Assembly: GCA_019118325.1 (NCBI GenBank)
Contig: DWZE01000042.1
Span: 1 to 64,000, forward strand
DNA length: 64,000 nucleotides
From: Candidatus Bacteroides intestinavium
GTDB lineage: Bacteria > Bacteroidota > Bacteroidia > Bacteroidales > Bacteroidaceae
Reading direction: 5' to 3'
Below the pieces are notes generated by a model. It saw nothing but the letters and a program-made list of their open reading frames with translations, ran no database searches and was not told where the DNA came from. The translations under genes were made by a program, and so were the position numbers. This document shows, piece by piece, positions 4,532 to 32,472 of the stretch. Positions within the stretch are counted from its first letter, which is position 1; each line of letters begins with the position of its first letter.

Positions 4532-5851
4532 ATGAACAAGCGTATCACTGCCCTTTGGAAATTCCTGACCTACGACATCTGGCGCATCACGGAGGATGAG
4601 GTCACAAAGACTACTTTCTCCGCCTACAACGTCATCAAGAGCGTCTACCTCTGCATCAACCGCTTCACGCAAGACAGGCTGGTCAACAAGGCTTCGGCAC
4701 TGACCTACAGCACGCTGCTGGCCATCGTCCCCATTCTGGCCATTGTCTTTGCCATTGCGCGGGGATTCGGCTTCGACGACATCATCCGGGAACAGATCAT
4801 GACGACCTTTGGCGGACAGACGGAAGCGGTGAACGTCATCCTGCAATTCGTCAATTCCTACCTGTCGGAGACCAAAAGCGGCGTATTCATCGGCGTGGGC
4901 CTCATCTTGCTGCTTTGGACGGTGCTGAACCTGGTGAACAGTCTGGAAATCACCTTCAACCGCATCTGGCAGGTGAAAAAAGCCCGGAGCATGTACCGCA
5001 AAATCACGGACTACTCGTCGATGCTGCTGCTCATTCCCCTGCTGCTGGTGGTGTCCGGCGGTCTCTCCATCTATATGAGCACCGCCCTGAAGTATGTGCA
5101 GGACTATGCCCTGCTGGCCCCCCTGGGCAAATTCCTGATCCGGCTGATTCCGTTTGCCCTGACATGGTTCATGTTCACGGGCCTGTATATCTTCATGCCC
5201 AATACGAAAGTGAAGTTCCGCCACGCACTGGTAGCCGGCATTCTGGCCGGATCGGCCCACCAGGCTTTTCAGTTCCTGTACATCAGCGGCCAGTTGTGGG
5301 TGTCGCGCTACAATGCCATCTACGGCAGTTTCGCCGCCCTGCCCCTGTTCCTGCTTTGGCTCCAGATTTCATGGACCATTTGCCTCTTTGGCGCCCAGCT
5401 GACGTATGCCAGCCAGAATATCCGCAACTTCAGTTTTGACAAGGACACACGCAACATCAGCCACCGCTACCGCGAATTTGTGTCCATCCTCGTGATGTCC
5501 CTCATCACGAAACGCTTCGCCCGGAATGAGCCTCCCCATAATGCCCAGTCCATTTCCGAGGAATGCCAGATTCCCATCCAACTGGCCCAACGTACCCTCT
5601 ACGAACTGCAAGAGATTAACCTCATCCACGAAGTAGCCAGCGATGAAAAAGGAGAGGAGATCGCCTATCAGCCCTCCATGGATATCAACCAGCTAAATGT
5701 GGCTGTCCTGCTGGACCGACTGGACACACATGGTTCGGAAGACTTCAAGATAGACAAAGACCAGACTTACAGCGACGAATGGACCGTGCTGATGAAGGCA
5801 AAGGAGGAGTACTACAAAAGTGCGGGGAATGTGCTGCTGAAGGACCTTTGA
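4532..5851 (+). CDS. YihY/virulence factor BrkB family membrane protein
   Basis: Multi-TM protein with ALTYSTLLAIVPILAIVFAIARGFG and YNAIYGSFAALPLFLLWLQISW typical of the YihY/BrkB family. Confidence 0.9.
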   Translation: MNKRITALWKFLTYDIWRITEDEVTKTTFSAYNVIKSVYLCINRFTQDRLVNKASALTYSTLLAIVPILAIVFAIARGFGFDDIIREQIMTTFGGQTEAVNVILQFVNSYLSETKSGVFIGVGLILLLWTVLNLVNSLEITFNRIWQVKKARSMYRKITDYSSMLLLIPLLLVVSGGLSIYMSTALKYVQDYALLAPLGKFLIRLIPFALTWFMFTGLYIFMPNTKVKFRHALVAGILAGSAHQAFQFLYISGQLWVSRYNAIYGSFAALPLFLLWLQISWTICLFGAQLTYASQNIRNFSFDKDTRNISHRYREFVSILVMSLITKRFARNEPPHNAQSISEECQIPIQLAQRTLYELQEINLIHEVASDEKGEEIAYQPSMDINQLNVAVLLDRLDTHGSEDFKIDKDQTYSDEWTVLMKAKEEYYKSAGNVLLKDL

Positions 5852-5965
5852 TTAGTGGTGTGAGTGGTGAGCGATTAGTGATTAGCATTTCGTACGCTGC
5901 TCATCACTAACCACTAATCACTAACCACTAACCACTAATCACTAACCACTAATCGCTAACCACTA
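5851..5965. repeat. CTAACCACTAATCA microrepeat tract, partly self-complementary
   Basis: Many 7/14-nt direct repeats on the right arm and the complementary TGATTAGTG/GTGGTGAG on the left arm. Confidence 0.7.
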
Positions 5966-7705
5966 TTCAAACAGCTTCCGATAGTCCCGCTCCGCAGCCG
6001 GCTTCACCCAATTCTGCGGGATGAACTTCCATTGCTCCAGACTCTCGGGCGTGATGACTTTCCGCTGCGCGATGTATTGCATCAGGTAGTAACGCAGGTC
6101 CTTGTCCGTAGAGAAAAGAATGCGGTCCTTCAACTTCTCTTGCGGGATGCCGGCTCCCCGGGTCAGCAACTCCCCTCCCCCATTCCCACGATAGGAATTG
6201 ACGGCCACCCGGTACATCCTATTCTCATCGAAAGGCGTTCCGTCGGCCATGCTCAGGATGGTGACTTTCTGACCGGCCGGACGGGTAACATCCACCGTGT
6301 AGAGGATGCCGGCAGCAGAATCGAAGTTGTAGCTGGGATTGCGGAAAAAAGTACGCTCCTCTGCCCCCTTTCCTTGTCCGGAAGGCTCGCGCAAGAGCAA
6401 CAGGTCATCGTCCGGCGCCTGCATCTGGTTGGTCCACAAGGCGTAGGACATCTCCAACGCTCCCCGGATTTCCTTGCCGGAGAGGGACATCGTATAGAGC
6501 ATGTTCTCATATTTATAAAGGTTGAACATATCGCTGACGCAAATGTCGCCTTCCTCAATCCGCGCATCAAAGGACAGGGGTGCCGCCAATGAAATCTCCG
6601 CCTGTCCAATCTCCAGTTGCAGGCGATGGATCAGATCCACAAAGGCCGAAGGCCCGAAATAGGCAGGACGCGTGGAAATAGACCGGGTGAAACGGCCTAT
6701 CTTCTTGGAGACAAAGGCCTGGATCGTGTCATACTGCGCCGAGAAGTGCGCCATGAAATCCCGGTCAGGCTCCAGGGCACCGACATCTGTCAGACGGCTC
6801 TCCACCCGCTTGCCTGTCACCTTGCCATCCTGCAAGGTCAGCGTGACCTCCACATCGCCCACGGTAACCGCATTGTTGGCGGGATTGACCACCCACACGG
6901 AATCCCCGTCAGCGTTGGCTACTTGGAAGCAAGCGCGTGCATGGTCGTGTCCAGCCAGTACCACATCAAAGCCCGGCACGTTGCACGCCACCTCCACCGA
7001 AGCATTGTCCCTATACTTGCCCCCCATCAGCACGGCTTTCTTACCCGCATGGAAGAGGCCGATGATCAGGTCGGGCTTTTCCTGCTCCCGGATGACGGGC
7101 ATCCATCGGCGAGCCGTTGCCTCCATGTCCTCGAAAGAAAGTCCGGGCCAAAGATTCTCGGAGAGCCACATCGGAATGGCTGGCGTAATCATGCCCAGTA
7201 TGGCAATCCGGACGCCTTCACGCTCCAGCATGACGTAGGGCTTGAAATGAGGCCGCCCCGTGGACCGGTCTATTACATTGGCTCCCAACACCGGGAAACG
7301 GCAATCCGCCGCCCAGCGGTCGAAGACTGCCCGTCCTGTCTCTATGTCATGATTACCCACTGTCCCGGCATCGTAATCCATGTAGTTCTGCATCTCTGCC
7401 GTCAGGTGGGGAGATACCGTGTCCATATAATTATAGTAATAGGCCGAAGGCTGACCCTGGAGAATATCCCCGTTGTCCAGCAATATCAGGTTGTCCCCGT
7501 ACCTCTGCCTTTCCTGCCTCACGAAGGCCTGCACCCGTGCCAGGCTTCCCGAGGCCGGCTGCCTGCGGATGAAGTCATAGGGATAGAAATTGCCATGCAC
7601 GTCGGAAGTTTCCACAATCTTCAGTTTGACGACTTTATCCTGTGCGACAACTCCACTCCATAGCCCCCAAAACAACAGGGCAGCAATCAATAACTTCTTC
7701 AACAT
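5963..7705 (-). CDS. Bifunctional metallophosphatase/5'-nucleotidase (exported)
   Basis: Signal peptide; VETSDVHGNFYPYD, DNGDILQGQP, GTVGNHDIE, VVLAGHDHA metallophosphoesterase motifs plus 5'-nucleotidase C-terminal domain. Confidence 0.92.
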   Translation of the reverse strand: MLKKLLIAALLFWGLWSGVVAQDKVVKLKIVETSDVHGNFYPYDFIRRQPASGSLARVQAFVRQERQRYGDNLILLDNGDILQGQPSAYYYNYMDTVSPHLTAEMQNYMDYDAGTVGNHDIETGRAVFDRWAADCRFPVLGANVIDRSTGRPHFKPYVMLEREGVRIAILGMITPAIPMWLSENLWPGLSFEDMEATARRWMPVIREQEKPDLIIGLFHAGKKAVLMGGKYRDNASVEVACNVPGFDVVLAGHDHARACFQVANADGDSVWVVNPANNAVTVGDVEVTLTLQDGKVTGKRVESRLTDVGALEPDRDFMAHFSAQYDTIQAFVSKKIGRFTRSISTRPAYFGPSAFVDLIHRLQLEIGQAEISLAAPLSFDARIEEGDICVSDMFNLYKYENMLYTMSLSGKEIRGALEMSYALWTNQMQAPDDDLLLLREPSGQGKGAEERTFFRNPSYNFDSAAGILYTVDVTRPAGQKVTILSMADGTPFDENRMYRVAVNSYRGNGGGELLTRGAGIPQEKLKDRILFSTDKDLRYYLMQYIAQRKVITPESLEQWKFIPQNWVKPAAERDYRKLFE

Positions 7706-7724
7706 CCTACTATTCTTTTAGATT

Positions 7725-8270
7725 TTAGAGCCAATCCACGTCCTTCAGCCGGGGATGATGCCTGTCTTTCTCGCTCAATATCACCTGCTCTGCCGGGATT
7801 CTCCAGTCAATGCCCAGGTCGGGGTCATCCCATGCCACGGCACCTTCGCTGGCGGGTGCATAGAAATTGTCACATTTGTATTGGAACACGACCTCTTCGC
7901 TCAACACGCTGAAGCCATGCAGGAAACCCCGCGGAATGAAGAACTGGCGATGGTTCTCCCCCGTCAGTTCCACAGCCACATGCTGTCCGAAAGTCGGCGA
8001 GCCCTTGCGCACATCCACCGCCACATCCAGCACAGCTCCCTTCACCACCCTCACCAGCTTGCTCTGCGTGTAGGGCGGTTTCTGGTAGTGCAAGCCACGC
8101 ACCACCCCGTAGGAAGACTTGCTCTCGTTGTCCTGCACAAACACCACCGGAGCCACTTTCTCCTCAAATTCCCGCTGATTGAAAGACTCAAAGAAATAAC
8201 CCCGCGCATCCTCAAACAGGCGAGGCTCCAAAATAAACACACCGTCTATGGCTGTCTTGATTACATTCAT
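7725..8270 (-). CDS. rfbC: dTDP-4-dehydrorhamnose 3,5-epimerase
   Basis: GVFILEPRLFEDARGYFFESFNQREF, GVVRGLHYQ, FIPRGFLHGFSVL, full family length. Confidence 0.95.
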   Translation of the reverse strand: MNVIKTAIDGVFILEPRLFEDARGYFFESFNQREFEEKVAPVVFVQDNESKSSYGVVRGLHYQKPPYTQSKLVRVVKGAVLDVAVDVRKGSPTFGQHVAVELTGENHRQFFIPRGFLHGFSVLSEEVVFQYKCDNFYAPASEGAVAWDDPDLGIDWRIPAEQVILSEKDRHHPRLKDVDWL

Positions 8271-8713
8271 ATCTCACTAAATCTGATTAATGTGCAAAAA
8301 TACAAGGATAATTTAGGTTTTACGGGAGGGCAAATGTTAAAAGGGGTTATTCAAACTACACAAAAAACTCCGTGGGGGTGGCAACTATTCAGCGGTAGTA
8401 AAAGCACAAGTCGTTTTCTTCCTATAAAGACAGGATGGGATTAATTGGCTAAAGTTATAATTGTCGTTTTTCCCAAGCAGTATCTACTATAAAATGTTTG
8501 GCAAAAAGCATCCACTCCATTATTAGACTTGAAAGTTTCGGATATTTTTGTTTTATGAATATCCGCAGAATGACTAAACAAAGAATGAGAAGCAACTATA
8601 AGCAAGCTCCTATAGCCAAGTATTATTGAATACTTTGCCATTTATCATTGCTTCTATGCCGGTTGAAGCATAGTATCCTTCAAAACATAATTGGGGAACA
8701 TACGAACATTCAT

Positions 8714-27270: not shown

Positions 27271-27386
27271 TCGGCCGATATGCTAAGTGCCCTCGCGTTT
27301 CTCTATGACAATCCTGTAAGCACGACTTGTAGAGTTTCAGTCTTCCTAGTTACAGGAACAGAGGGCGGTAACGGCTGTACATATTA

Positions 27387-27989
27387 TTATAGGTGTATTA
27401 ATGTTCCAGGCTCCTGTGTCAGCTCATACCGGTCGTTCACCAATGCGGAATTGGCATAAAGGATGCTGTCCACTTCCTCTATGCCGCGGGCATCGTGTAT
27501 ATGGCCGAAAAGATGGATGCGAGGCTTGATGCGGGTGATTTGTTGGAGCAGGGCGTAATTTCCCCAGTGGATATTTCCCGAAAAGTCACATATGCCCAAT
27601 GGGGGTTGGTGGCTGATCAGGATATCCGTACCGGGAGGAATCCGGTGGATTTGTTGTTCGTATGCACCTGCTAGGTCATCACCTACAAACATGGGCATTC
27701 CGTAGAAGTGCAAACCTTCTATTGCCATGCCCGAGTTGCAGAGATAATGCACATGCTCCGGCAGCCCTTCCAATTGGGCTTGGTAAAGGCAATCGTCATG
27801 GTTTCCGGCGATAAATATTTTGTGCGGATGAGGGAGGGAAGACAGCCATTCGATAAAGTCAAAGGCTTCTTCCTCCGTGCCCGCCATGGTGAAGTCCCCG
27901 GAGTGGACAAGCACGTCTGCATCGGGTAAGGCGTGGAGTTGCCGGTGCAAGCCGTGCGTGTCCGAGAGGTGTAGTATGGTCTGTATCAT
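27387..27989 (-). CDS. Calcineurin-like metallophosphoesterase
   Basis: HLSDTHGLHRQL, DVLVHSGDFT, FIAGNHDDCLY, LISHQPP, HLFGHIHDARG. Confidence 0.9.
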   Translation of the reverse strand: MIQTILHLSDTHGLHRQLHALPDADVLVHSGDFTMAGTEEEAFDFIEWLSSLPHPHKIFIAGNHDDCLYQAQLEGLPEHVHYLCNSGMAIEGLHFYGMPMFVGDDLAGAYEQQIHRIPPGTDILISHQPPLGICDFSGNIHWGNYALLQQITRIKPRIHLFGHIHDARGIEEVDSILYANSALVNDRYELTQEPGTLIHL

Positions 27990-28028
27990 TCTAGCGGTAA
28001 TCGTCAGTATTTCCGTCTTTGGGCAGTT

Positions 28029-28949
28029 TTAGGATTGCTTCAGCCTTTCGATCCAGTTCCGTTCGGCTTTTTCCCCGATTTCCTGCAATCGTCGGGCTTG
28101 CTCGTCGGTGAACTGCAAGATGCGTACGTCGCCTGCGACATGTTCATGCAACTTGTCCATGTAACCCATGTCCGCCACCTTATCCAGGTCGTCAAGTATT
28201 TCCTTGTTGATACCCGGTTCTTGCGCGATTTTTTCCATCAGCGGGATGGACAGGCGATGGTTATACGCGAGATGCATGGACATCAGTTTGGCATAGAGCT
28301 TACGTCTCAGTTTGACAGGTACATCCTTGATGGGCGCAAATACAAACGGAGCCTCCGGGTGGCTATGCGTATCCCCGTTCCCTAACGAATAGGTAAGGTA
28401 ACAATAGTCTGAGGTATCCCAGTAAGTATCCCTTTTGCAACGAGGCTCGTCTTGTTCCCATCTCTTTTTACAAATCTCATATTTTTTAGTCGAAGGGGGA
28501 AGTGCCGCAATGATTTCCAAGGAGGCATATCCATAATCCACAACCTCTACGATGTCCCCAATCTGGAACTTTATCTTTTCTTCCGGCACGCCGTAGAAAG
28601 GTAGCAGGTCCGACGATTTATCCGGAGTGGTGTAGACAAAGTCGTCGTTCGGTTCTCCCATCCGGGTATAAGTGTGTATGGAAATTCCGTTCCAGGGTAT
28701 AAAGGGCTCGTTCAAAGCGAGTTCTCGTATGCTATAACCAATGGTGGTCGCCAAGTCATAGTCCTTTTCTCCTTCCTTTTCCGCTTCAGCCTTTTCTTTC
28801 AAAGCCTCGGCAACAATACCTTTCATAGCGTTTTCCGCTTTTTCAAGTGTGGTAAACAGGCCGTAATTGTTATCATGGGCTTTCCGGGAAGGATAGCGAT
28901 TGGTCCATGCATAGATTTGTTTAAGTTCAAAGATGGTTTTATGGGTCAT
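28029..28949 (-). CDS. Hypothetical protein
   Basis: 306-codon ORF with coding-like composition; no family recognised. Confidence 0.75.
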   Translation of the reverse strand: MTHKTIFELKQIYAWTNRYPSRKAHDNNYGLFTTLEKAENAMKGIVAEALKEKAEAEKEGEKDYDLATTIGYSIRELALNEPFIPWNGISIHTYTRMGEPNDDFVYTTPDKSSDLLPFYGVPEEKIKFQIGDIVEVVDYGYASLEIIAALPPSTKKYEICKKRWEQDEPRCKRDTYWDTSDYCYLTYSLGNGDTHSHPEAPFVFAPIKDVPVKLRRKLYAKLMSMHLAYNHRLSIPLMEKIAQEPGINKEILDDLDKVADMGYMDKLHEHVAGDVRILQFTDEQARRLQEIGEKAERNWIERLKQS

Positions 28950-29011
28950 AAGCCTATCTGTTAGGTAGTTTGAATTTTTTTTCTGATGAAATGTGTGAGT
29001 AGTTCTCCCGA

Positions 29012-30289
29012 TTAAGTCGTAGCGATGTAGGTTTCTCCGTCTTGGATCAGGATGATGGGAGCTATGCTGCCAAACAAGGTTTCAAACCTTTCCGGATGTT
29101 CCGTATGGATGGGGATGATACCTTTCCGCGGCTTCACTTGCCAGAAGAGTTTTTCCAGCGTTTGGATGTCGCAATGCCCGCTGGTGTGCATGGATTTGTA
29201 GCCGGGATAGTGTGAAAGCGCCTCCTTCATGTCAGCGTTGAGAGTCGTAGGAGAACTTTCGTCCAAATAACCTTCCCACATGGAGTAATACAAAGTTTGG
29301 TCTTGGTCTCCGTCAAACGTGGAAACAAAATTCCAGAAATGCCGGTTATTCCTGATAGGCATGCAGAAACCTTTGCTTTTCATCAGGTTCAGCAACCTTT
29401 CCGGGAAAAAATAATTGCCGTCTTTGTACCGTTTGGGGACGTAGACCTGTTCCCTGATCTGGTAGAAACTGGTGTAAACGCCATGGTTGGAAGCGACGAT
29501 ATCCATTAATTTCTTTTGATAATTATCGCATACGAAGATACGTCCGGCTTGGTAAGCCGCATGATAGAGCGAGAATATACGGTCAATGTTAGTGCTGGCT
29601 GTCAAGACAAAGTTATATTTGCTTTGGCGGAATTCTTCGATGAACCGACGTTGAAGAGTCTGTTCGCTCTCTATTTCTACCGTGCGGTAGATGTTGGTTC
29701 CTTCAGAAATGATGTAATCTATCTCTTTGGCATATACAGCCATCAGCTTGGGCAAAGCCTTGCTGCGGAAGCCGTGCCCCCGGAAATCACCCGTGTATAG
29801 CAGCCGTGTACCTCCGGCTTCTATGACAAACATGTAAGCATCAAAGGCAGAGTGGTCCACCATCAAGGGGATGATTCGGAAAGGGCCGATTGACATATCC
29901 TTGCCGGGCGTAAAGGTATGTACGTTTTCCATACGTTTCAGGATTCTTTCCATTTTTTCTTTTCCGTCCGGTTGCAAAATGTTGAACAGATAGTTTTTCG
30001 TGCATTTATAGATTTCCAGAGCGGTTTTTCCCATGTAAATCGGGACCTCATGTTGGGCTTCAAGGATTCTCCCGATGTGATCCTCGTGGTAGTGGGTGAT
30101 GAAGAGCGCACTACGGGTCGTATCGCCCTGAGTCAAACCTTCAATCGGTATGGATTCGGTATTGGGGGTGCCGGGCAAGGGTTCTCCCAGGTCGATAAAC
30201 AATCGGTAATCTTCGTGGTTGATTTCAGTGATGCACCCACCAATTTGATGGGTGCCGCGATGGATGGTAATTTTCATACTGTTTTGCAA
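29012..30289 (-). CDS. MBL-fold metallo-hydrolase, RNase J/beta-CASP-like
   Basis: HxHxDH motif ITHYHEDHIGR, LLYTGDFRGHG, IISEGTN, MHTSGHCDIQTLEKL, IIPIHTEHPERF. Confidence 0.85.
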   Translation of the reverse strand: MQNSMKITIHRGTHQIGGCITEINHEDYRLFIDLGEPLPGTPNTESIPIEGLTQGDTTRSALFITHYHEDHIGRILEAQHEVPIYMGKTALEIYKCTKNYLFNILQPDGKEKMERILKRMENVHTFTPGKDMSIGPFRIIPLMVDHSAFDAYMFVIEAGGTRLLYTGDFRGHGFRSKALPKLMAVYAKEIDYIISEGTNIYRTVEIESEQTLQRRFIEEFRQSKYNFVLTASTNIDRIFSLYHAAYQAGRIFVCDNYQKKLMDIVASNHGVYTSFYQIREQVYVPKRYKDGNYFFPERLLNLMKSKGFCMPIRNNRHFWNFVSTFDGDQDQTLYYSMWEGYLDESSPTTLNADMKEALSHYPGYKSMHTSGHCDIQTLEKLFWQVKPRKGIIPIHTEHPERFETLFGSIAPIILIQDGETYIATT

Positions 30290-30310
30290 GGGGGGGGAAA
30301 ATGGGTTATT

Positions 30311-31057
30311 TTATTTAGTTTCATTGATTGCATTTACCGGTTCGATGCTGATGTGTTGCACTTTCTTGCATTTTTCGCTTCGGAGCTTGAGAAAGATTTC
30401 CGCTTTCAGGTCTTCCGCGCTTATTTCCGGTCGATAGTTGATGTCCAGCATGTTGCATAACGCCCGAAAGTTGTTGCAGAACGTGTATTTGTGAAATTCT
30501 CCCCGGTTATCTATCCATTCGATATTGAGGTTCCACAGGCTATTCGTCTGTCGTAATTCTGCGATGTTTCTGAAATTTCTGAGCAACTCGATCTCATTTT
30601 CCAGTTCGGCTATCAGATGGTCTACCTGTATATCCTTTCCATCTCCGATGCCCATTCCCAGGAAGCAATAGATTTGTTTCCGGCTGATGTCGTATGTCTT
30701 TTCCATCTCCGCCAAACCCATGCCCTTGCACGAAGCCTTGCAGATGGCATCTTCCAAGCTGATAGCCAATTCGCTTCTGAGCAGGCTCATGGCACCATCA
30801 TTAGAGGGCCTTTGTCTTTTGTTCTGTTTGGATTTGGCGTAGCTGTTTTGAAATTTGTAAAATTGTTCTTCGGTCAGGTGAAGATATGGCTTCATGTCAT
30901 TCAGGTAGTCCAGATTCAAGATGATTTCTTTATTGGCCAGTTCTTCCAATCCCTCCATGATTTGGTCGTAATTCAAGCCTAATTCCTCGGAGATTTGGTC
31001 CAAGGGACGATAAAGATCTGTCTTGTCCAAAAGTTCTGCTAGGTTTTTTGCGTCCAT
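30311..31057 (-). CDS. Hypothetical protein with two HTH-like segments
   Basis: RPLDQISEELGLNYDQIMEGLEELANKEII and GLAEMEKTYDISRKQIYCFLGMG; 21 bp upstream of the MBL gene. Confidence 0.7.
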   Translation of the reverse strand: MDAKNLAELLDKTDLYRPLDQISEELGLNYDQIMEGLEELANKEIILNLDYLNDMKPYLHLTEEQFYKFQNSYAKSKQNKRQRPSNDGAMSLLRSELAISLEDAICKASCKGMGLAEMEKTYDISRKQIYCFLGMGIGDGKDIQVDHLIAELENEIELLRNFRNIAELRQTNSLWNLNIEWIDNRGEFHKYTFCNNFRALCNMLDINYRPEISAEDLKAEIFLKLRSEKCKKVQHISIEPVNAINETK

Positions 31058-31251
31058 ATCGAATAGCTTTTTATAAGTTTATGTTCCTATATACGAAAAA
31101 CGAATTTTAATAGACGGGTAAATTGTTAAGAAGTATATATGATTAGGATGAGAAATAATCGATAAATTACTGTACGATAAACGATTTTATGATTTTGATA
31201 GTGCTTTATAGAAGATTTTCGTTAACCTTATTTATAGATTTCGTCATTGAT

Positions 31252-31300
31252 AGCTGCATAAAAACTCAGCGCATGTAGCATTCTGAGTTTTTATGTAGCT
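31252..31300. terminator. bidirectional-looking hairpin
   Basis: AGCTGCATAAAAACTCAG / CTGAGTTTTTATGTAGCT, 18-bp stem with one mismatch. Confidence 0.7.
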
Positions 31301-31317
31301 GTTTGGTCCGGTGTGTC

Positions 31318-31956
31318 TCACTTGCTTTCTTCTAGGTGAAGGATTTGGTTAGTTATGTCTCCTTGCTTTAATGAAAAACACCTGAATTCTATGCCTTCTC
31401 CTTTATTATTTATTTTGTCGTGAAGGCTATTGTAAGTACCCTTATTTGCGTTTTTTACTATTTCTATGAAATAGCGTAATGGATTGCCCTCTAATTCTTT
31501 GCTTTGGTTCAGTTTCAATATATCCTTCTGGTGGTCATGTTCATCTGGGTTATTGGCTTTGAATTCAATCAGTGCAATCCTCTGGAGTTTATTGTCGAAA
31601 ATAACCAAGTCGAAGTTTGCAGGATCTCCTTTACCATCTTCGTTATAGGACGGATTTTTATCTTTGAAGCAATACTTATCGCCTTTGGTTGGTGTTTCGA
31701 CAGAATAATACACATCCCAAGCGTTTCCTTCAGCTACAATTTCCTTGTTAAGCTGTTCTACAAAGATGAATCTGAGTTCTTGTTCGCTGATTCTTGTCTC
31801 TCCTTTACAAGAGTTGGGGAAAATAATTCGACTTCGTTTGGAAGATTCATCCAGACTTCCCTCTTTTTCTTTCTGATGATTATATACATCCTGGATGATT
31901 TCGAATGTGTTTTTAATCACATTCTCAATGTGTTTTTGGTGTTCTTGGTTCGTCAT
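31318..31956 (-). CDS. Hypothetical protein with PD-(D/E)XK-like core
   Basis: FDLVIFDNKLQRIALIEFKANN matches a D-(x)n-ExK nuclease core spacing. Confidence 0.7.
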   Translation of the reverse strand: MTNQEHQKHIENVIKNTFEIIQDVYNHQKEKEGSLDESSKRSRIIFPNSCKGETRISEQELRFIFVEQLNKEIVAEGNAWDVYYSVETPTKGDKYCFKDKNPSYNEDGKGDPANFDLVIFDNKLQRIALIEFKANNPDEHDHQKDILKLNQSKELEGNPLRYFIEIVKNANKGTYNSLHDKINNKGEGIEFRCFSLKQGDITNQILHLEESK

Positions 31957-32287
31957 AATTCTTAGCAGAAATAAAGTTAATAATATGATATTTATATTGC
32001 AAATAGGGGTTAGCCCTTATTATGTTACAAAGCTAAGATTTTTTTCTGAATTTTCCACATAAACACTTCACTATTTTTCTATTAGTTTTTTAAAAAGTGG
32101 ATATCTGGTTCTCAAAAGCCACATCCGATAAGTGTCTTGGCCGGATGAAATTCCACCGGATAAGCAGATTGCGAGGATAATGCCTCATGAGGTACATATG
32201 AGCAAGAGGAGGAATATGTCGAAAGTGAAGAACGAAAAGGAATGTTCGCAACTGGCCTAAGCATAGGATGAAAAACAAAGTAAACAA

Positions 32288-32353
32288 ACTTCTACGACCA
32301 TTTCATCTTACTTCTATGACCATTTCACCTTACTTCTATGACGGTTGAAGCAT
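32288..32353 (+). repeat. tandem array, 3 units, 22-bp period (ACTTCTATGACCATTTCACCTT)
   Basis: Units at 32288, 32310, 32332; last unit diverges in its second half. Confidence 0.85.
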
Positions 32354-32448
32354 AGCTACATTTACCAAAACGTCACTTGGTGGAATGCGGGCAATTCATT
32401 TTTTCCTGCATTTATTAGCAGATTCTACCAGAAAGCCCTACATTTGCA

Positions 32449-32456
32449 CACAAAAC
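32449..32456 (+). promoter_or_regulatory. -7 box TACATTTG upstream of the AMP-binding ligase
   Basis: TAnnTTTG match. Confidence 0.5.
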
Positions 32457-32472
32457 CATAAAGTGTGCAATC

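Follow-up and report, generated by a model that had tools for sequence, protein, structure and literature searches.

The window analyzed here is a 64,000-nucleotide stretch of contig DWZE01000042.1 from Candidatus Bacteroides intestinavium. Between gmd and an AMP ligase gene, it carries five minus-strand genes (Table 1), encoding a metallophosphoesterase (MPE), ORPH306, a predicted beta-CASP metallo-beta-lactamase (MBL), HTH248, and a 212-aa protein of putative PD-(D/E)XK type. The five ORFs were verified at 27387-31956, where a sequence-only reading had placed them, and the short spacing it gave for four of them was measured as 39 bp (MPE-ORPH306), 62 bp (ORPH306-MBL), and 21 bp (MBL-HTH248). 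A longer gap of 260 bp separates HTH248 from the 212-aa gene. The lower GC content also claimed for these genes holds for genes 2-4 (0.455-0.465) and for the 212-aa gene, which has the lowest value (0.34), against 0.53-0.58 in most flanking kilobases; the MPE end, at 0.53, is not clearly low.

Table 1. Positions in the window of the cassette genes and their candidate control elements
Feature	Position	Strand	Basis or remark
MPE, MPPED2-like calcineurin-type metallophosphoesterase	27387..27989	-	Match to 3rl4; PDC-S10
ORPH306, accessory protein	28029..28949	-	Core like a C-terminal domain that other MBL homologues carry as a fusion
Beta-CASP metallo-beta-lactamase nuclease (predicted), 421 aa from ATG	29012..30277	-	Motifs; RNase J/EF2904 profile matches
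HTH248, HTH-like segments	30311..31057	-	Sub-threshold profile matches
TTCGTATATAG box directly 5' of HTH248	31083..31098	-	Candidate promoter or operator
Terminator-like hairpin 3' of 212-aa gene	31257..31295	-	-18.7 kcal/mol, z -3.5
PD-(D/E)XK-type protein (putative), 212 aa, exchangeable partner slot	31318..31956	-	Motif and predicted topology
Upstream region of 212-aa gene	31957..32470	-	Bacteroides-type -7 box TAGCTTTG, 79 bp before ATG

The five genes had been described as one cassette. All are present, but the 212-aa gene is probably transcribed separately, because a TAnnTTTG box of its own precedes it and a strong terminator follows it; an analogue of this terminator occurs in the related locus L152 (z -4.2). 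The HTH248-MBL-ORPH306-MPE unit begins behind the TTCGTATATAG box, whose core is identical in the window, L151, and L152. A role for TTCGTATATAG as a general operator was rejected, as its other occurrences look like chance. At the junction of the cassette and the AMP ligase gene (~32267-32400) lies a dispersed intergenic repeat that matches about 20 further places in the genome.

The cassette is an accessory segment, since the slot is occupied by fcl in congeners and four of the genes lie at another site in the nearest kin. Five congeners have a single gene of ~360 aa between gmd and the AMP ligase gene, and in both of those read (two of the five), this gene is fcl. In the window, fcl (GDP-fucose synthase), which comes after gmd in congeners, is absent from the slot (27271-32472), and the cassette stands there instead. 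The nearest kin by MBL is Candidatus Bacteroides intestinipullorum (L151), in which the proteins of an HTH248-MBL-ORPH306-MPE block are 93-97% identical to those of the window. At the DNA level, the 95% identity to the window covers only 27384-31238, starting just past the MPE stop, and the four-gene block sits between other core genes than in the window. In L152, the gene order is that of the window (212-aa type, HTH248, MBL, MPE), at 46-74% identity, and HTH248 is absent from all 60 other relatives searched. MBL matches at E ≤ 0.001 occur in 68 of 301 genomes of the family sample, 49 of them strong, and presence is patchy within the genus. Forty neighborhoods were read first, followed by 80 named loci of the genome collection, with a close MBL alignment as query. 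The roughly 130 homologous loci are mostly from Bacteroidota, with others in Proteobacteria, Clostridia, plasmids, and viral contigs. When HTH248, the 212-aa gene, and ORPH306 were the queries, no viral relatives were found.

The beta-CASP enzyme and its accessory proteins

The start of the MBL is probably the ATG at 30277, which gives MKITIHRG as in homologues, and not the TTG at 30289. By its motifs, the protein is a beta-CASP nuclease with every catalytic residue. In an alignment of 16 diverse homologues, with identity to the window MBL as low as 28%, H66, H68, D70, and H71 (HxHxDH), H146 (motif 3), and D168 (motif 4) are invariant in 16/16. The same is true of motifs A, B, and C (E196, H372, and H395), which align with RNase J. 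Searched as a profile, the MBL aligns along almost its full length with experimentally determined structures of EF2904 and RNase J, and the fold and full motif set are common to RNase J, aCPSF1, and EF2904. The earlier label of an RNase J-like enzyme is thus confirmed at the level of a beta-CASP enzyme of the RNase J type. Identity with RNase J itself was rejected: the RNase J family model gives 53 bits against a cut-off of 400, and the protein stops where the MBL core does and has no RNase J C-terminal domain. RNase J is also a core gene, whereas the module MBL is accessory and mobile. Cas14 of type VII CRISPR is likewise a beta-CASP nuclease of an immune system, but the MBL scores only 12 bits against its cut-off of 800, and the cassette contains no other Cas protein. 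Histidine at motif C marks RNA-type beta-CASP enzymes, and valine marks the DNA type. The MBL is probably of the RNA-processing type because its motif C residue is histidine. In comparison with L151, dN/dS is 0.10 for the MBL, 0.20 for MPE, 0.43 for HTH248, and 0.51 for ORPH306, values that rest on few substitutions; the MBL is under purifying selection.

MPE belongs by sequence match to the MPPED family. It matches the MPPED2 structure 3rl4 (E 3e-23) and the PADLOC candidate family PDC-S10 (6.5e-71), and a homologue lies downstream of the MBL gene in 31 of 80 loci. ORPH306 has no profile match. By hhalign (91%, E 1e-6, 137 columns), its core aligns with a C-terminal domain that the MBL itself carries as a fusion in 19 of 80 loci. 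The label "HTH-like" for HTH248 agrees with matches to RecQ-type HTH profiles, but all are sub-threshold and lend it weak support. HTH248 homologues occur in the MBL loci L049, L151, and L152, and others lie close to REase-ARP or RtcB-PrfH genes; most of the weak matches are proteins of ~730-860 aa that align solely at their HTH-like end. In L133, L134, and L135, ORPH306 and HTH248 homologues occur without an MBL, near REase-ARP (PF22558) genes, and so are linked to a nuclease there as well.

A conserved pair with an exchangeable partner

A PD-(D/E)XK-type gene precedes the MBL gene in 70 of the 76 loci having upstream sequence, as judged by BLAST to seed families; in L185, L214, and L217, the motif in the upstream gene was read by eye. 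Immediate upstream neighbors were assigned to partner families in 61/68 cases, versus 10/373 for other genes of like size, with seeds from an earlier locus set that are not fully independent of the test, because about ten loci are common to both. Three loci (L153, L154, and L213) have no partner. The pairing is found in 7/8 plasmid loci and in 3/3 viral contigs. The plasmid pairs come from Ochrobactrum, Rhizobium, Sphingomonas, Cereibacter, Cupriavidus, and Butyrivibrio, in some of which the partner lies downstream; the pair is not present in the plasmid locus Prevotella pE2-28. MBL loci form compact operons with overlapping genes, and in L179 (2579-3418) an unrelated calcineurin-type phosphoesterase lies between the partner and MBL genes. 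Homologues of the cassette genes co-occur elsewhere, and not all belong to housekeeping families, which fits the sequence-only reading. It had singled out the MBL and the HTH protein as the pair, a candidate that we rejected with HTH248 in few loci. The conserved pair is MBL and PD-(D/E)XK, and HTH248 and ORPH306 belong as accessory genes to a small Bacteroidales subset.

The assignment of the 212-aa protein as PD-(D/E)XK-like, proposed earlier, agrees with both its motif and its predicted topology. Its family keeps E60 (in the first core helix), D116, and E131-x-K133 in 12/12 rows, and an AF2 model (pLDDT 62) has the canonical alpha-b-b-b-alpha-b topology. Foldseek, which had been suggested for this gene, gave nothing significant with that model (best E 0.07), and family-profile searches, including PADLOC, gave no match. 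Homologues sit upstream of the MBL gene in L037, L043, L128, L152, L180, and L201. A divergent paralogue (32%) is encoded in the same genome, on contig C67 (L132 7034-7684), with no MBL beside it.

The partners fall into at least six families without BLAST similarity between them. Residue conservation was scored in five aligned families, and the D and ExK residues are kept in 40-41/41 rows of c1, 19/19 of c7, 15/15 of c6, 12/12 of the window type, and 6/6 of c12. That all partner families are of PD-(D/E)XK type is suggested by this motif, and for two of them by predicted topology, because profile comparison links the families only partly: c1-c12 at 93%, c1-c6 at 62%, c1 and the window type at 39% (weak), and c7 with none. 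The commonest partner type, c1, resembles Shedu in its predicted structure. A model of the c1 partner of L151 (pLDDT 89) also shows alpha-b-b-b-alpha-b, with E163, D207, E221, and K223. Its first PDB match is Shedu SduA, followed by BsmI, BstEII, HamA, and McrC; many of the top matches are PD-(D/E)XK enzymes, none below E 0.01. Partner Foldseek E-values are 0.02-0.1. In c1 the PD-(D/E)XK core lies behind an N-terminal domain. Unlike Shedu, the module partner is nearly always linked to an MBL gene, and the PADLOC Shedu profile matched neither a c1 partner (L052) nor the other partners tested.

The partner has been exchanged repeatedly as a single gene. On the MBL tree, at least 27 changes of partner class occur over ~73 labeled rows, as compared to 31.0 ± 1.4 with shuffled labels; its distribution over the tree is close to random. 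In four pairs of loci (L197/L205, L193/L203, L192/L207, and L209/L212), DNA comparison shows both flanks to be 80-92% identical, and similarity is lost only over the partner gene or its immediate surroundings. A further example is the window against L151, whose MBLs are 98% identical and whose partners, window type and c1, are unrelated. This exchange bears on whether the pair is a toxin-antitoxin or addiction system, in which one nuclease is toxic (perhaps the MBL, acting as an RNase), the partner or HTH248 neutralizes it, and mobile elements are stabilized. The presence on plasmids and viral contigs, the compact operons, and the accessory distribution fit such a system. However, in five families the putative antitoxin would retain the active site of a nuclease, and it is replaced by an unrelated protein beside a toxin that is 98% identical, a swap that would break cognate neutralization. 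We regard this explanation as unlikely.

Genomic neighborhoods

WYL regulator genes are found in 22 of 80 loci. WYL-led MBL loci also encode small proteins that match DNA polymerase III alpha in part (L180 5333-6181 and L042 9009-9530), and one such family of ~170 aa recurs in many MBL loci. In L152, a CRISPR array (4605-8622) with 47-bp repeats, ~30-bp spacers, and at least 49 copies directly follows MPE; cas genes were not identified on that contig. Among 107 non-module neighbors are some CBASS cyclases, pAgo, SoFic, and Schlafen-type proteins, and next to the cassette within the window, no classical defense gene was identified. The enrichment of defense genes near MBL loci is modest and, having been counted without matched control loci, suggestive. 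Earlier, the genes had been proposed as an undescribed stress, defense, or RNA-processing module; the neighborhoods point to a role in conflict or defense, whereas phage defense itself is something that we infer.

R-M or DUF262 genes adjoin plasmid copies, and ORPH306 or HTH248 homologues away from MBL genes adjoin REase-ARP or McrBC. Together with Shedu, BsmI, and BstEII among the top c1 fold matches, the R-M, McrBC, and REase-ARP genes nearby would fit a restriction-like exclusion of DNA, in which both enzymes cut DNA through a Shedu-like cut and exonuclease action of the MBL. Set against this are the motif C histidine, which is RNA-type rather than the DNA-type valine, and the fact that no methylase was seen traveling with the module; DNA exclusion thus appears improbable, to about the same degree as addiction.

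An RtcB-PrfH operon lies near the MBL loci L153 (2-1776), L194 (9568-11414), and L203 (12128-13971), and beside the HTH248 homologue in L136 (4817-6612). RtcB2-PrfH protects E. coli against colicin E3 (PMC9223846). With the similarity of MPE to MPPED2 and the RNA-type motif C of the MBL, these operons could indicate a response to RNA damage, in which the MBL, the MPPED2-like enzyme, and RtcB-PrfH would act together on the ends of broken RNA under WYL/HTH stress control, but RtcB-PrfH is present at only a handful of loci and constant swapping of a PD-(D/E)XK partner is not expected of a repair pathway, which makes RNA repair quite doubtful.

A proposed counter-invader module

The anatomy of the module, namely, the pairing, the conservation of both active sites, the exchange of the partner, the patchy distribution, and the purifying selection on the MBL, is firm. 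The combination of a constant effector and a hypervariable partner typically marks a conflict system. On balance, we lean toward a mobile counter-invader module, most likely anti-phage or anti-plasmid, composed of a constant beta-CASP MBL and a variable partner of PD-(D/E)XK fold, because a fixed nuclease with a repeatedly swapped partner is the pattern expected of immunity to viruses and plasmids. In the proposed mechanism, the partner would recognize invading DNA or make the first cut in it, a role given to it because it is the variable part and its commonest type resembles the Shedu nuclease. This action would license the MBL, probably an RNase, to degrade phage or host RNA. The MPPED2-like MPE could then trim cyclic phosphates or nucleotides that this cleavage produces. 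HTH248 and ORPH306 may serve this Bacteroides clade as extra subunits or regulators; at other loci, WYL regulators may take over the regulatory job, or an ORPH-like domain may be fused to the MBL. Within this reading, invader recognition, action on RNA, and a role in defense are inferred. More tentatively, the module could represent a new class of prokaryotic immune system, in which a constant RNA-type beta-CASP nuclease is armed by an exchangeable PD-(D/E)XK sensor-nuclease slot and gains new specificities by single-gene exchange, with an MPPED-type phosphoesterase, WYL/HTH control, and ORPH-domain subunits as optional parts; we would put the chance of this somewhat short of even.

The nearest concept among known systems is the trypsin-MBL nuclease-protease pair of Hachiman HamM, AVAST, and Lamassu (PMC12799240). 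Like the module, these pairs join an MBL-fold nuclease to a second defense protein and have repeatedly recombined into different systems. Their MBL, however, is ComEC-like and activated by a trypsin-like protease, whereas the module has a beta-CASP MBL with an RMMBL part and a PD-(D/E)XK partner, and no protein in the window matches a protease in Pfam or NCBIfam. PDC-S10, the predicted defense-candidate family of PADLOC that includes the window MPE, is in the module an optional gene downstream of the MBL.

The module is widespread in gut and environmental bacteria and apparently undescribed: no description was found in the open-access literature searched, whose silence is weak evidence. It gives context to the candidate PDC-S10 and to several protein families that lack profiles. 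The many loci that are nearly identical except for one gene amount to natural swap experiments on the component that would set specificity. If the counter-invader reading is correct, this would be a widespread two-nuclease immune module, present in gut Bacteroidales as well as on Rhizobium and Butyrivibrio plasmids, and it would illustrate clearly how modular immunity works in nature, with one nuclease replaced and the other constant.
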